64,000 nucleotides of DNA from Pseudoroseomonas cervicalis (lineage in GTDB: Bacteria > Pseudomonadota > Alphaproteobacteria > Acetobacterales > Acetobacteraceae): positions 3,511,501 through 3,575,500 of the forward strand of contig NZ_JAUTAJ010000004.1 of the NCBI RefSeq assembly GCF_030818485.1, read 5' to 3'. A program made the translations under genes and the position numbers. Below, piece by piece: positions 33,163 to 37,685 of this stretch. The notes under the pieces were generated by a model. That model was not told the origin of the DNA, did not search any database, and saw only the letters and a list, made by a program, of their open reading frames with translations. Positions within the stretch are counted from its first letter, which is position 1. Every line of letters begins with the position of its first letter.

Positions 33163-35598
33163 ATGCGCTTCCTGCCCCTCCTGCTGCTGGTGCTGAGCTG
33201 GAGCCTGCCGGCTTTCGCCCAGACCCCTCCCGCCAATGGCGCCCCCCCGGCCGGCCAGGCCGCGCCGCTGCCCGCCGGGGAGGCGCAGCGCCTGCTCGGC
33301 CTGCTGCGCGACGATGCGCGGCGCGCCGAGCTGCTGCGCACGCTGGAGGCGCTCTCCGCCGCCGAGCGCGCGGCGCCCCGCCCGGCGCCCGCGCAGGGGC
33401 AGGCCCCCGCAGCGGCGCCGGCCGCCCCGGCTGCGGGCCAGCCCGCCCCGGCCAATGGCGCCGCCCCGCCCGCCAATGGCACCCCCGCCCCCGCCGCCAC
33501 GGCCGGCGCGGCGGTGGAGCAGCTGCTGGCGCCCAACACGCTGGGCGGGCAGATCCTGCTCGGCGCCTCGCAGCGCCTGTCCTGGCTGTCCGAGCAGATG
33601 GTGCGCGCGGCCGAGGCGGTGACCGACCTGCCCTCGCTGCTCGCCTGGTCCTCGGCCGCGGCGCGCGACCCGGTGACGCAGCGGCGCATCGCCGACGCGT
33701 CGTGGAAGCTGCTGCTGCTGTTCGGCCTGGGCGTGCTGGCGGAATGGACCGCCTGGCGGGCGCTGCACCGGCCGCGCCGGCGGCTGGATGCCAGCGTGCC
33801 GGCCGCCCCGCTGCGCGGCTGGGCCAGGCTGCGCCGGGTGCCGGCGGTGCTGGGCCGGCTGCTGCTGGACCTGCTGCCGATCGCCGCCTTCGCCGTGGTG
33901 TCCTACGGGCTGATCCCGGCGCTGCAGCCGCTGCCGACCACGCAGCTGGTGCTGCTGACCGCCAACAACGCCTATATCGCCTGCCGCCTGCTGATGGCGC
34001 TCGGCCGCATGCTGTTCTCGCCCGCCAGCGCGCATCTGCGGGTGCTGCCCTGCGCCGACCTGACGGCGGCCTATGTCACGGTCTGGCTGCGCCGGCTGGT
34101 GGTGGTGCTGGTCTCCGGCTACGCCATCGCCGAGGCCGGGCTGCTCTTCGGCCTGCCCTGGGGCGCCTATGACGCCATCCTGCGCATGGTGCTGCTGGTC
34201 ATCTCGGTCTTTCTCGGCATCATCGTGCTGCAGAACCGGGTGGCGGTGGCCAGCTTCCTGCGCGCGCCCCCGCTGAAGGAGGGCGACCAGCCCAATGCCG
34301 GCCGCCGCGCGCTGCGCCGCTTCCGCGACTGGCTGGCCGAGGTCTGGCACATCCTGGCCATTCTCTACCTGCTGGCGCTGTGGGGGGTCTGGGCGCTGGA
34401 GATCCGCGACGGCTTCTCCCGCCTGCTGCGCGCCAGCCTGCTGACGCTGCTGGTGCTGACGGTCGCCAAGGGGCTCGACATCCTGCTGCGCCGGGCGCTG
34501 GCGGGCAGCTTCCGCATCTCGATGGACCTGGCCGGGCGCTACCCGGCGCTGGAGCAGCGCGCCAACCGCTATGTGCCGCTGCTGAAGGGCAGCGTCTCCG
34601 CCGTGCTGACGGTGCTGACGGTGCTGACGCTGATGGAGGTCTGGGGGGTGCGCTCCTTCGCCTGGTTCGCCCCCGGCGCGCTGGGCAGCCAGCTGCTGCA
34701 CTCCCTGGTCTCGGTGGGCTTCACCGCCGCCATCGCCGTGCTGGTGTGGGAGACGGCGAATGCCGCCATCCAGCGGCATCTCGACCGCCTCTCCCGCGAT
34801 GCCGAGGCGGCGCGCAGCGCCCGCGTGCGCACGCTGGTGCCGATGCTGCGCACCACGCTGCTGATCGTCATCCTGCTGTTCGTCGCCTTCAACCTGCTCA
34901 CCGAGCTCGGCGTGAACGTGGCGCCGCTGCTGGCCGGTGCCGGTGTCATCGGCCTGGCGCTCGGCTTCGGTTCGCAGAAGCTGGTGCAGGACGTCATCAC
35001 CGGCGTGTTCCTGCTGTTCGAGGACGCGATGGCGGTGGGCGATGTCGTCAATCTCGGCGGCAAGAGCGGCGTGGTCGAGAAGCTGTCGATCCGCTCCATC
35101 ACGCTGCGCGACATCGATGGCAGCGTGCACATCATCCCCTTCAGCACGGTGACCGCCGTCACCAACATGACGCGCGACTTCTCCTTCGCCGTGCTGGATG
35201 TGCAGGTGGCCTATCGCGAGGACACCGACCGCGTGGTCGAGCTGCTGCAGGGCCTGTGCCAGGAGATGCGATCGGAGGCCAAATGGGGCCTGGTGATCCG
35301 CGACGAGATGGAGGTGCTGGGCGTCAACCAGCTCTCGCCGGACGGGCCGGTGATCCGGGTGCGCATCAAGACCGAGCCGATCCAGCGCTGGAACGTGCTG
35401 CGCGAGATGAACCGCCGCATCAAGCAGCGCTTCGACGAGATGGGCATCGAGATCCCGGCGGCGCGGCAGAAGCTGGTCTTCGAGGGCGGCGCGCCGGGGC
35501 CCCTGGCCCCCGGGGCAGCCCCGGGCGCGACCCCGGGCGGCGCCCCGCCCGCGGGCCCCGCCCAGCCGGGCGGCCAGCCGGCGACGCAGCCGAGCTGA
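33163..35598 (+). CDS. Large MscS-family mechanosensitive ion channel
   Basis: The product has 811 residues: a signal peptide (MRFLPLLLLVLSWSLPAFAQ), a Pro/Ala-rich periplasmic linker, about ten helices, then the MscS core. The pore helix is PLLAGAGVIGLALGFGSQKLVQDVITGVF and the beta domain starts MAVGDVVNLGGKSGVVEKLSIRSITLRD. The C-terminal tail after FEGGAPG is low-complexity Pro/Gly/Ala. It opens under membrane tension to release solutes in hypo-osmotic shock. It is a paralogue of the disrupted gene at 9970 and may cover that function. Confidence 0.93.
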   Translation: MRFLPLLLLVLSWSLPAFAQTPPANGAPPAGQAAPLPAGEAQRLLGLLRDDARRAELLRTLEALSAAERAAPRPAPAQGQAPAAAPAAPAAGQPAPANGAAPPANGTPAPAATAGAAVEQLLAPNTLGGQILLGASQRLSWLSEQMVRAAEAVTDLPSLLAWSSAAARDPVTQRRIADASWKLLLLFGLGVLAEWTAWRALHRPRRRLDASVPAAPLRGWARLRRVPAVLGRLLLDLLPIAAFAVVSYGLIPALQPLPTTQLVLLTANNAYIACRLLMALGRMLFSPASAHLRVLPCADLTAAYVTVWLRRLVVVLVSGYAIAEAGLLFGLPWGAYDAILRMVLLVISVFLGIIVLQNRVAVASFLRAPPLKEGDQPNAGRRALRRFRDWLAEVWHILAILYLLALWGVWALEIRDGFSRLLRASLLTLLVLTVAKGLDILLRRALAGSFRISMDLAGRYPALEQRANRYVPLLKGSVSAVLTVLTVLTLMEVWGVRSFAWFAPGALGSQLLHSLVSVGFTAAIAVLVWETANAAIQRHLDRLSRDAEAARSARVRTLVPMLRTTLLIVILLFVAFNLLTELGVNVAPLLAGAGVIGLALGFGSQKLVQDVITGVFLLFEDAMAVGDVVNLGGKSGVVEKLSIRSITLRDIDGSVHIIPFSTVTAVTNMTRDFSFAVLDVQVAYREDTDRVVELLQGLCQEMRSEAKWGLVIRDEMEVLGVNQLSPDGPVIRVRIKTEPIQRWNVLREMNRRIKQRFDEMGIEIPAARQKLVFEGGAPGPLAPGAAPGATPGGAPPAGPAQPGGQPATQPS

Positions 35599-35710
35599 GG
35601 CACGGCCGGGTCCGGGGGAGCGGGTCGCGGTGCCCGCGCAGCGGCCCGGCCCCGCGTGGCCCGGCCCGCCCTGTCCGGTCCGCCATGTCCGGCCCGCGGC
35701 CCCGGCATGC

Positions 35711-35740
35711 TTGCCATCGGCGCGTGGATGGTCCTATCCT
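35711..35740 (+). promoter_or_regulatory. Predicted promoter of the Ile-rich leader
   Basis: TTGCCA (35711-35716, 5 of 6 to the sigma-70 -35 consensus) and TATCCT (35735-35740, 4 of 6 to -10) are 18 nt apart. The leader ATG begins 7 nt after the -10 hexamer, so the transcript would start at or next to that ATG. This is a visual prediction only. Confidence 0.45.
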
Positions 35741-35746
35741 CCATCC

Positions 35747-35797
35747 ATGCGCCGCATTCGGACCATCCGGATCATCATTAGCGGCCCGGCCGCCTGA
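35747..35797 (+). CDS. Isoleucine-rich leader peptide (putative attenuator)
   Basis: A 16-codon frame encodes MRRIRTIRIIISGPAA. Five of the 16 codons are Ile (three ATC, two ATT), with three consecutive at positions 9-11. It sits 77 nt before the ACT-domain gene. No ribosome site precedes the ATG, but the predicted promoter would put transcription start at the ATG, giving a leaderless message. Downstream, CCCGGCCGC (35785-35793) pairs perfectly with 35815-35823, starting inside the end of the peptide. A second, weaker hairpin (35820-35833) overlaps the distal arm, so the two exclude each other. This is the layout of an amino-acid attenuator sensing Ile. No T-run follows, so control may be of translation. 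Confidence 0.6.
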   Translation: MRRIRTIRIIISGPAA

Positions 35798-35874
35798 GCG
35801 CCCTGCGGGGGGCAGCGGCCGGGACAAGCCCCGCGCGCCTGCTTCCCTTCCGCTCAGATCCGGAATCTTTACCA

Positions 35875-36150
35875 ATGTCCGATTGCGCTTCCTTCACGGT
35901 GGCCCGCTTCACCGTCCTGGCCGATTCCTATCCCGGCCTGCTCTCCCGCGTGCTCGAACCCTTCGCCAAGCGCGACCTGACGCCCGACCGCCTGCGCGCC
36001 CAGCGCGAGGGCGAGTATCTGCGCGTCGAGATCGGCCTGGACGCCATGCCGGTCGAGATGCTGCATCTGGTGGCCGGCAATCTGGGCCAGATCGTCGGCG
36101 TGCTGCGGGTCGAGGCCATGGAGGGCCGGCATATCCGCCTGGCCGCCTGA
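35875..36150 (+). CDS. Small ACT-domain protein, acetolactate synthase small-subunit-like
   Basis: The product has 91 residues, a single ACT fold: SFTVARFTVLADSYPGLLSRVLEPFAKRDLTPDRLRAQ then YLRVEIGLD and a second half ending in VLRVEAMEG. Its size and pattern resemble the short regulatory subunit of acetohydroxyacid synthase (IlvM) more than the longer IlvH. No catalytic ilv gene is adjacent; the next gene is an SMR exporter. The Ile-rich leader peptide in front supports a branched-chain amino-acid link. It could bind an amino acid and regulate an enzyme encoded elsewhere. No clear ribosome site precedes the ATG. Confidence 0.75.
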   Translation: MSDCASFTVARFTVLADSYPGLLSRVLEPFAKRDLTPDRLRAQREGEYLRVEIGLDAMPVEMLHLVAGNLGQIVGVLRVEAMEGRHIRLAA

Positions 36151-36275
36151 GCCGCCGGGCCAGGCCCGGCCGCCGGTTTGACCCCCCGGAGGGCGGCGCC
36201 CTAGACTGCGCCGCCTGCCCGGGAAGCCCTGATGACCTGCCCTGCCGCCCCGTCCGCCTCTCGCCGGGGCCGCGC

Positions 36276-36617
36276 ATGACCGCCTGGCTCACCCATCCCT
36301 GGGTCATCCTGGCCTGCGCCATCGTCGCCGAGGTGATCGCCACCTCGGCCCTCAAGGCCTCCGACGGCTTCACCCGGCTGCTGCCCTCCATCCTGGTGGT
36401 GGCGGGCTATGGCGTGGCCTTCTTCTGCCTGTCCCTGACGCTGCGCAGCATGCCGGTGGGGCTGGTCTACGCCCTGTGGTCGGGCATCGGCATCGTGCTG
36501 GTCTCGATCGCCGGCCTGGTGATCTACGGCCAGCGCCTGGACGCCCCGGCGCTGATCGGCATCGCCCTGATCATGGCCGGCGTGCTGACCATCAATCTCT
36601 TTTCCAAGTCCCACTGA
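36276..36617 (+). CDS. Small multidrug resistance (SMR) family transporter
   Basis: The 113 residues form four helices. The first, WVILACAIVAEVIATSALKASDGF, holds the membrane-embedded Glu (about residue 18) that exchanges protons for substrate in EmrE. GVAFFCLSLTLRSMPVGLVYALWSGIGIVLVS matches the family core. Members work as antiparallel dimers, exporting quaternary cations or guanidinium. Stop-anchored repeat sequence follows the TGA directly. Confidence 0.93.
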   Translation: MTAWLTHPWVILACAIVAEVIATSALKASDGFTRLLPSILVVAGYGVAFFCLSLTLRSMPVGLVYALWSGIGIVLVSIAGLVIYGQRLDAPALIGIALIMAGVLTINLFSKSH

Positions 36618-36650
36618 TTTTTTTGTCAGCTGCCGGTCCGGGCCGGGACG
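36618..36650 (+). repeat. Stop-anchored repeat behind the SMR gene
   Basis: After the TGA come seven T, then GTCAGCTGCCGGTCCGGGCC. It differs from the minus-strand copies by one missing G in GGCTGCCG and shares the GGTC-GGGCC continuation with the copy at 46749. A convergent copy lies 110 bp away, behind tyrA. Confidence 0.55.
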
Positions 36651-36760
36651 GGAGGGGCTGCACCCGGGCCGGACGCCTGGGCCCGGGGGAGGGTCTGCTC
36701 GGCGCGGCGCGGTGAACCCGGCGCGCCACCATGCCAGCAGCGCCACAGCCGAGCGCAGAA

Positions 36761-36797
36761 GCCCGCCTCTCAACCCGCTTGCGGCAGCCTGACAGAA
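36761..36797 (-). repeat. Stop-anchored repeat behind tyrA
   Basis: Directly after the tyrA TAA the minus strand reads TTCTGTCAGGCTGCCGC, then AAGCGGG and GAGAGGCGGGC. The core TCAGGCTGCCG is the same as behind murU. CCGC-AA-GCGG gives a short stem. Confidence 0.6.
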
Positions 36798-37685
36798 TTA
36801 AGCCTGCTTCAGCTCGATGAGGCTGCGGCGGATCTTGCGGCCGCGGCGGATGCGGTCCTCGATGAAGCCGGCCTCGCCCCAGCGCACGGCGCGGCCCAGG
36901 GCGTGCGCGTCCTCGGAGAAGCGCGCCAGCATTTCCAGCAGCGCCTCGCGGTTGTTGAGGAAGACGTCGCGCCACATGTCGACATCGCTCGCCGCGATGC
37001 GGGTGAAGTCGCGGAAGCCGGACGCCGCGAATTTCAGCACCTGCTCGCGCGTCTCCTGCGCCAGATCATCCGCCGTGGAGCAGATGGTGAAGGCGATCAT
37101 GTGCGGCAGGTGGGAGACAATGGCGACCACCTTGTCATGCGTCGCCGGGTCCATCGTCTCGATCATGGCGCCGGCGCGGCGCCACAGCTCGGCGATCCTC
37201 TCCTGGGCCGCGGCGTCGCCGCCCTCGACCGGGGTCAGGATGACGTAGCGGCCCTGGAACAGGCTGGCGAAGCCGGCATCGGGGCCGGAATGCTCGGTGC
37301 CGGCCATCGGGTGGGCGGGCACCAGATGCACGCCCGGCGGCAGCAGCGGCAGCAGGTCGCGCAGCACCGAGCCCTTGGTGGAGCCCACATCGCTCAGCAC
37401 GCAGCCCGGCGCCAGATGCGGCGCGATCTGCGCCATCACCGTGCCGAAGCGGCCGACCGGGGTGCAGAGGATGACCGCGTCGCAGCCCTCGACCGCCTTG
37501 GCCGGGTCGGTCTCCACCACATCGGCCAGGCCCAGCTCGCGCACCCGCGCGGCCACGGCCTCGCTGGTGTCGCAGGCCACGAGCGTGCCGGCGATGTCGC
37601 CGCGCTCGCGCGCCAGCCTTGCCAGGGAGGAGCCGATCAGGCCGAGCCCGATCAGGCAAAGCCGCCGGAAGAGCGGCTCAGCCAT
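36798..37685 (-). CDS. tyrA: Prephenate/arogenate dehydrogenase
   Basis: TyrA oxidatively decarboxylates prephenate or arogenate on the way to tyrosine. The 295 residues contain the N-terminal nucleotide site [18 protein letters not shown], then [22 protein letters not shown], the catalytic-type [13 protein letters not shown] with its two His, and a helical C-terminal dimer domain. There is no ACT domain. The start overlaps the end of hisC by 8 bp, and chorismate mutase lies upstream, giving a three-gene tyrosine/aromatic operon. NAD versus NADP use cannot be told with certainty. Confidence 0.94.

Follow-up and report, generated by a model that had tools for sequence, protein, structure and literature searches.

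What does a short isoleucine-rich reading frame do in front of a lone ACT-domain gene? This question was raised by a window of 64,000 nucleotides, i.e., the whole stretch of DNA analyzed, from Pseudoroseomonas cervicalis (contig NZ_JAUTAJ010000004.1, positions 3,511,501 to 3,575,500 of the forward strand; coordinates below are those of the window). An initial annotation had proposed an isoleucine-sensing attenuator acting on an orphan regulatory subunit.

Leader and ACT gene in the window

All features lie on the forward strand. A −35-like hexamer TTGCCA (35711-35716) is separated by 18 nt from a −10-like hexamer TATCCT (35735-35740), which ends 6 nt upstream of the ATG (35747) of a leader ORF, MRRIRTIRIIISGPAA* (35747-35797). 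This ORF, whose ATG, frame, and stop position are kept in orthologs, comprises 16 codons, five of them for isoleucine and three of these consecutive; its translation presumably begins at the very first base of the transcript. The triplet ATC ATC ATT (35771-35779) consists of the specifier codon ATT (35777-35779) and two extra isoleucine codons; a preceding CGA is absent. A perfect 9-bp stem, P3, starts inside the ORF. Its 5' arm CCCGGCCGC (35785-35793), identified from the sequence and from P3 statistics in orthologs, lies within leader codons 13-16, its 3' arm GCGGCCGGG (35815-35823) was identified from the sequence and from a survey of hairpins and stops in homologous leaders, and the stop codon TGA (35795-35797) falls between both arms. 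The initial annotation mentioned a second hairpin and gave no coordinates for it; the further pairing found in the window is P1: its 5' arm UCCGGAUC (35766-35773), a candidate anti-Shine-Dalgarno sequence, forms eight perfect pairs with the 3' arm GAUCCGGA (35857-35864), which overlaps the Shine-Dalgarno region of the ACT gene, and the pairing shows covariation in orthologs. TTGCCA, the 18-nt spacer, TATCCT, the ATG, the 16-codon ORF with five isoleucine codons, the 9-bp stem, and the 91-residue gene were all found where the initial annotation had placed them.

The gene behind the leader (35875-36150) encodes a lone ACT-domain protein of 91 amino acids, as indicated by a weak Pfam match, remote profile matches, and the predicted fold. 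The match to Pfam ACT_4 (E = 0.034) was below the cut-off, no cut-off was reached in the copies of Pfam and NCBIfam searched, and the protein stayed below the curated family cut-off for the small subunit of acetohydroxyacid synthase (AHAS; IlvH/IlvN/IlvM). The predicted structure is an ACT fold (pLDDT 92.2). Nearest structures were ACT domains of PGDH, IlvN, and GTP pyrophosphokinase, the match to IlvN having an E-value of 4.3e-5 and a TM of 0.72, with PGDH ACT domains equal or better. Remote profile matches to AHAS small subunits (E = 0.0016 and 0.0078) had an unrelated copper-ATPase between them (0.0029). Three of 18 aligned members matched ACT_5 with E-values up to 0.01; profile PF22629 matched two other genes of the own genome and not the 91-aa gene. 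The best 120 of 321 relatives carry the precomputed Pfam accession PF26954.1, and database names among these 120 were hypothetical, ACT domain-containing, and acetolactate synthase small or regulatory subunit. As had been annotated, no AHAS large subunit gene adjoins the ACT gene; ilvB and ilvH are intact and located together elsewhere in the genome. Judging from the modeled fold and the remote matches, the protein is a probable regulatory subunit. An origin as split-off C-terminal domain of threonine ammonia-lyase was also considered; profile comparison, a weak test covering 3 of 8 IlvA tails, gave no support. The ACT gene is preceded by a gene for an MscS-type channel, and a gene for an SMR-family small multidrug transporter (36276-36614) follows immediately 3'.

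Conservation and distribution of the leader

Among 150 genomes from the family of the window, 72 had matches to the ACT gene; a class sample of 289 genomes gave matches in 43, the own genome counted. Upstream regions were counted for 72 of the 74 family matches, leaving out L107, whose frame is broken, and L122, which matched weakly within a long frame. With the own genome set aside, those of the 42 class matches were counted as well. The core was defined as CGAATT or, in the four loci nearest to the window, as ATTA[CG]C plus CC[CG]G. It was present in 107 of these 114 regions (family 70/72; class 37/42, including L116 with a core at −26 nt and no leader, which looks spurious); 103 of the 114 contained CGAATT, the other four ATTA[CG]C without CGA. 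The usual form comprises an ATG lacking a Shine-Dalgarno sequence near a −10 hexamer, about 7-17 codons, the in-frame core CGA-ATT-A[CG]C-nnn-CCG-GCn, and a GC hairpin. Two genus mates of the window locus (L008, L009) and the family member L010 keep the ATG near the −10 hexamer, ATT-AGC, and the hairpin. This conservation, together with the 107 of 114 ortholog upstream regions, indicates that the leader in the window is more than chance.

An in-frame ATG was located 5-25 codons upstream in 142 of 149 ACT leaders and in 82 of 84 leaders found before ileS. A Shine-Dalgarno-like motif preceded this ATG in 2 of 142 ACT and 1 of 82 ileS leaders. In 43 and 25 of the 142 ACT leaders, the motif TANNNT ended 6 and 7 nt, respectively, upstream of the closest in-frame ATG; a hexamer sharing ≥4 of 6 bases with TATAAT did so in 23 and 19 of the 82 ileS leaders. 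Judged by their sequences, the ACT and ileS leaders carry the signature of leaderless transcripts, a −10 hexamer about 7 nt before the AUG and no Shine-Dalgarno sequence, which supports the leaderless start proposed for the window. The −10 peak was not clear among 15 leuA leaders, and the leaderless sign is weak there.

A stop codon is located within the hairpin in 113 of 149 ACT leaders (84 TGA, 13 TAA, 16 TAG), 79 of 84 ileS leaders, and 11 of 15 leuA leaders. This position of a stop codon of varying kind speaks for translation of the leader. The hairpins of the other 36 ACT leaders yielded no in-frame stop, and several of these ORFs overrun the ACT start, which suggests occlusion or coupling instead of Shine-Dalgarno pairing alone. 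Leaders of this kind, with a stop-less hairpin and a frame running over the ACT start codon, include L079, L087, L089, L100, and others.

An exact pattern search matched 62 of the 150 family genomes as compared to 2 for the reversed control. Among 39 stretches at matches away from ACT genes (not all such matches; at least G063:C53 was left out), 28 lay before ileS, one before a gene for an AAA_33 protein, and ten before nothing recognized. A match in G000 (C4:2589892) with neither leader ATG nor recognized gene looks like chance. In the own genome, a canonical element precedes ileS (model R1, E = 2.4e-6), and model R1 matched 90 of the 289 class genomes at E 0.01. A further 77 loci were read from matches of R1 and of R2, in which the specifier is masked, whose position had not yet tied them to ACT or ileS: 21 before ileS, 15 leuA, 13 ACT, three genes for threonine ammonia-lyase-like proteins without ACT domain, three AAA_33, three genes for a protein that had no Pfam or NCBIfam match in the one copy searched, one ribF, and 18 before nothing recognized. 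Downstream genes were assigned by similarity to reference proteins, family names being checked on one or two representatives. Among 303 stretches in all, 297 were distinct and 36 had no assigned gene. In G378, leader, ACT gene, and ileS lie in succession.

When the GTDB species collection was scanned for the exact motif, blind to genes, at least 119 stretches were obtained; among the matches listed, at least 52 preceded ileS, at least 46 ACT, at least 8 AAA_33, at least 3 ilvA-like genes, and at least 10 none, and five of ten gene-less loci there (L330, L336, L339, L371, L401) sit at the end of their stretch. In a phylum sample of 299 genomes, whose class make-up is not given, R1 had matches at 0.001 in 19 genomes, all belonging to the window's class; 12 of these loci were read, of which ten lay before ileS, one before ACT, and one apparently by chance (one of the 12, in G171, was already in the earlier set). 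Genera bearing the element include Roseomonas, Azospirillum, Thalassospira, Tabrizicola, and Asaia. The arrangement is not confined to one locus; it is widespread in the class. A script search of ilvB leaders in six genomes found none with ≥35% I, L, and V.

Specifier codons and RNA pairing

The specifier was AUU at all distinct loci before ACT (145/145), ileS (83/83), AAA_33 (10/10), and ilvA-like genes (5/5), counts that are partly due to selection since many loci were found through ATT; the core was re-located in two ileS, one AAA_33, and one ilvA-like locus, all four with AUU. All 15 leuA leaders carried CUU, and these loci were found by R1 despite its ATT and by R2 with the specifier masked. 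As far as codon content can tell, the leaders contain the regulatory codons of ribosome-mediated leader-peptide regulation, AUU at isoleucine-linked genes and CUU at leuA. The isoleucine specificity assumed for the window is thereby supported, the same element standing before ileS and threonine ammonia-lyase-like genes and a leucine codon before leuA. With the masked model R2, which has low sensitivity, specifiers for other amino acids were not found beside any recognizable gene. The share of leucine before the core was 24% in leuA, 10% in ACT, and 5% in ileS leaders; that of isoleucine was about 8.5% in ACT and ileS leaders as compared to 4.4% in genes of the window.

In three genes of the window, two further stretches being excluded for an internal stop, ATT accounted for 2 of 68 isoleucine codons and CGA for 1 of 110 arginine codons. 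Both are rare there and yet kept in the leaders; hence, selection seemingly acts on codons or RNA and not on the peptide. By its codons, the window element (L007) is a variant without CGA that carries extra isoleucine codons. Together with L008, L009, and L010 it lacks CGA and keeps ATT-AGC and the hairpin; the residues of the isoleucine region are I-I-I in the window and I-V-I, I-I, and I-T-I in these relatives, respectively. Two leuA leaders of one genus also lack CGA and read L-L-L-L. An extra residue of the specified kind within three codons was present in 6 of 6 leaders without CGA versus 67 of 260 with CGA (P = 0.0004, with only about two independent losses). The isoleucine run as the conserved feature found no support. 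Comparison with relatives upheld the leader core and the hairpin; the run itself proved a local form, the usual form being one AUU after CGA. As a search criterion the run was dropped: among 30 loci, scanned before orientation and 17 of them reversed, it occurred in the window and in one II case. Model R1 gave the window element a low score (E = 0.0055, partial match), and R2 recovered neither this element nor that before ileS of the own genome.

RNA pairing was analyzed as duplex energy of native as compared to swapped segment partners, with permutations that ignore tree structure. Pairing of the 5' part of the leader with the Shine-Dalgarno region of ACT genes gave z-values of −13.9 (n = 70), −9.4 (n = 37), −9.1 (n = 29), and −6.1 (n = 13) in four slightly overlapping samples, and 0 of 20000 permutations were as low as the native pairing. 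The pooled value was −20.7 (n = 147) and, after removal of repeated stretches, −20.3 (n = 143 distinct loci, 0/5000). The P3 arms gave −15 at ACT and −9.9 at ileS. Among the 21 segment pairs compared, ACT loci showed a weaker term between core and Shine-Dalgarno region (−6.9). A second inner pairing, between the core and the stretch behind the hairpin, was also supported at ACT (−7.4, −7.6). At ileS the P3 arms alone stood out; the same swap test did not support the inner pairing there, and leader-Shine-Dalgarno pairing was absent at ileS (z −1.0; n = 84, n = 83 without repeats), leuA (1.0, n = 15), and AAA_33 (−0.5, n = 10). Therefore, a single read-out cannot account for all members. The ACT signal is unlikely to stem from shared base composition, because ileS and other segment pairs lack an effect of this kind. 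Thus a predicted structure sequestering the Shine-Dalgarno sequence, as in a translational attenuator, is present at ACT genes and was not seen at ileS or leuA. The P1 arm lies upstream of both specifier and stop codon, its end at a median distance of 4 nt from the former and 25 nt from the latter (n = 136); consequently, a ribosome at the specifier would mask this arm and a ribosome at the stop should not.

Proposed mechanism and related systems

Sequence, conservation, the match of codon to gene, and covariation argue that the leader is probably a peptide switch which reads the supply of isoleucyl-tRNA and acts on the translation of the lone ACT gene. Where the transcript starts, that the ribosome stalls, which way control runs, and what the ACT protein does, we infer as follows. 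Transcription would start at the leader AUG or adjoining it. With ample isoleucyl-tRNA, the ribosome would reach the stop inside the GC hairpin and leave; the 5' coding part of the leader would then pair with the ACT Shine-Dalgarno region and keep initiation low. With scarce isoleucyl-tRNA, the ribosome would wait at AUU and cover the anti-Shine-Dalgarno arm just upstream, so that the ACT gene is translated. The ACT protein may be a feedback or stabilizing subunit of branched-chain amino-acid enzymes. Leaders that overrun the ACT start would need an occlusion variant of this switch.

Escherichia coli ilv and leu attenuators consist of a leader peptide with several Ile, Leu, or Val codons, ribosome stalling, and an intrinsic terminator. 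A classical transcription attenuator of this type, in which stalling picks an antiterminator or a terminator hairpin, would account for regulatory codons that adjoin a strong GC hairpin as in the ilv and leu operons, and the Caulobacter ilvBN leader is described in this way (PMC4117421; statements on the papers cited here refer to the portions available). However, a U-tract as in intrinsic terminators of the trp/ilv type was not found behind the leader hairpin at ACT, ileS, or leuA: the mean T fraction in the 8 nt past the hairpin was 0.27, 0.22, and 0.18, and T runs ≥4 within 12 nt occurred in 11 of 149, 5 of 84, and 2 of 15 leaders, respectively. We consider such an attenuator unlikely; of the isoleucine-sensing attenuator proposed initially, the isoleucine-specific leader found support, a terminator-type mechanism did not. 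Rho-dependent termination is a possible read-out, above all at ileS and leuA.

It appears highly improbable that the ORF is incidental and that CGANUUA functions as an RNA or protein binding site, whether riboswitch-like or an sRNA target. The nucleotide invariance of CGA and AUU does exceed what a peptide needs, CGAATT being kept in 103 of the 114 gene-picked ACT loci and in 45 of 45 aligned sequences, the latter picked for having it; but the leaders retain their frame, leaderless ATG, and stop position while the stop codons change, and the change from AUU to CUU in the core tracks isoleucine versus leucine genes. Arrest by the nascent peptide R-I-[TS]-x-P-A, sensing a metabolite instead of codon starvation, would fit a short conserved C-terminal peptide adjoining the stop codon. 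This explanation is very hard to credit, as P and A vary (T-A-A, S-A-A, A-A-A, or an early stop after RIIT) and follow the bases of the hairpin, and the invariant codons are rare synonyms.

Beyond the isoleucyl-tRNA switch, we tentatively suggest, though we would not yet favor it, that the element is a modular ribosomal counterpart of the T-box. Its fixed scaffold would comprise a leaderless AUG, a few codons, CGA, one specifier NUU, and a hairpin containing the stop, with the single specifier swapped between Ile AUU and Leu CUU according to the gene. CGA is read by tRNA-Arg(ICG) in most bacteria, through an I:A pair of reportedly poor efficiency (PMC3711424). We infer that CGA may sensitize the next codon; inhibitory CGA codon pairs of yeast (PMC6301793, PMC6379720) are a mere analogy. 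A ribosome held at CGA could make one codon suffice as sensor, and where CGA is lost, as in the window and two leuA leaders, extra codons for the same amino acid would replace it. The lone ACT protein would then be a starvation-induced regulatory arm of an isoleucine regulon. Many Alphaproteobacteria may thus use a leader peptide to adjust isoleucyl-tRNA synthetase and branched-chain functions to supply, and an AAA_33 protein and the as yet unstudied ACT protein would be linked to isoleucine. Such a single-codon sensor would be testable, and the worth of CGA before the sensing codon directly measurable.

The branched-chain attenuators of Caulobacter ilvBN (PMC4117421) and Corynebacterium ilvB-II (PMC10272879) share with the element a leader peptide bearing Ile, Leu, or Val codons and sense charged tRNA by stalling, as is predicted here, but they contain several codons and an intrinsic terminator, whereas here a single codon is usual and the U-tract is missing. 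The LEU element, reported for Actinobacteria (PMC1262725), likewise places a leader peptide before leuA; it has a leucine run and a pseudoknot, whereas here one specifier, mostly isoleucine, follows CGA, and Shine-Dalgarno pairing occurs at ACT and not at leuA. Sinorhizobium trpL (PMC10117765) is a leaderless translated leader ORF, as the isoleucine element appears to be, but is the Trp leader of a transcription attenuator. A translational T-box before actinobacterial ileS also regulates this gene, its Shine-Dalgarno sequence being sequestered in the T-box (PMC1262725), and the amino acid of T-boxes is likewise set by a specifier codon (PMC2494555); T-boxes, however, bind tRNA directly without translation (PMC7583486).

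Rfam gave five sub-threshold matches in the window from 35000 to 37000 (E 0.4-3.7), none over the gathering score and none a T-box, and no match at gathering score in 17 related loci. Apart from a leader CDS of Caulobacter crescentus ileS, CCNA_03934, in a ribosome-profiling study (PMC4117421), a literature search, most subscription papers lying outside it, found no description of the element. CCNA_03934 is likewise a leader ORF before an alphaproteobacterial ileS and served there as negative control. The alphaproteobacterial list of Corbino et al. 2005 (PMC1273637), in the portion available, comprises serC, speF, suhB, ybhL, and metA, and an ilvB leader peptide is mentioned as already described, citing Vitreschak 2004.

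Several further arrangements were observed. An AAA_33 P-loop protein is encoded behind an isoleucine leader at L231, L236, L256, L162, and other named loci, among others in Bradyrhizobium, Methylobacterium, Nitratireductor, Pseudovibrio, and Sulfitobacter. The ACT-less threonine ammonia-lyase-like proteins behind the leader at L227, L238, and L240 have about 310-320 aa, and these genomes contain a full-length threonine ammonia-lyase copy elsewhere. At L223, L229, and L254, in three genomes of one genus, a 170-aa protein follows the leader; the L223 protein was searched and had no Pfam or NCBIfam match, and it appears SnoaL-like by eye. The ACT leader of L257, LVVVVRLITGPVSL, has Val, Leu, and Ile codons around CGA-CTC-ATT, its register being set by hand. 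Finally, tandem pairs of leaders before one gene were seen at L094 and L098, before ACT in G309, G181, and G406, and in G199 (C1:888161 and 888362).
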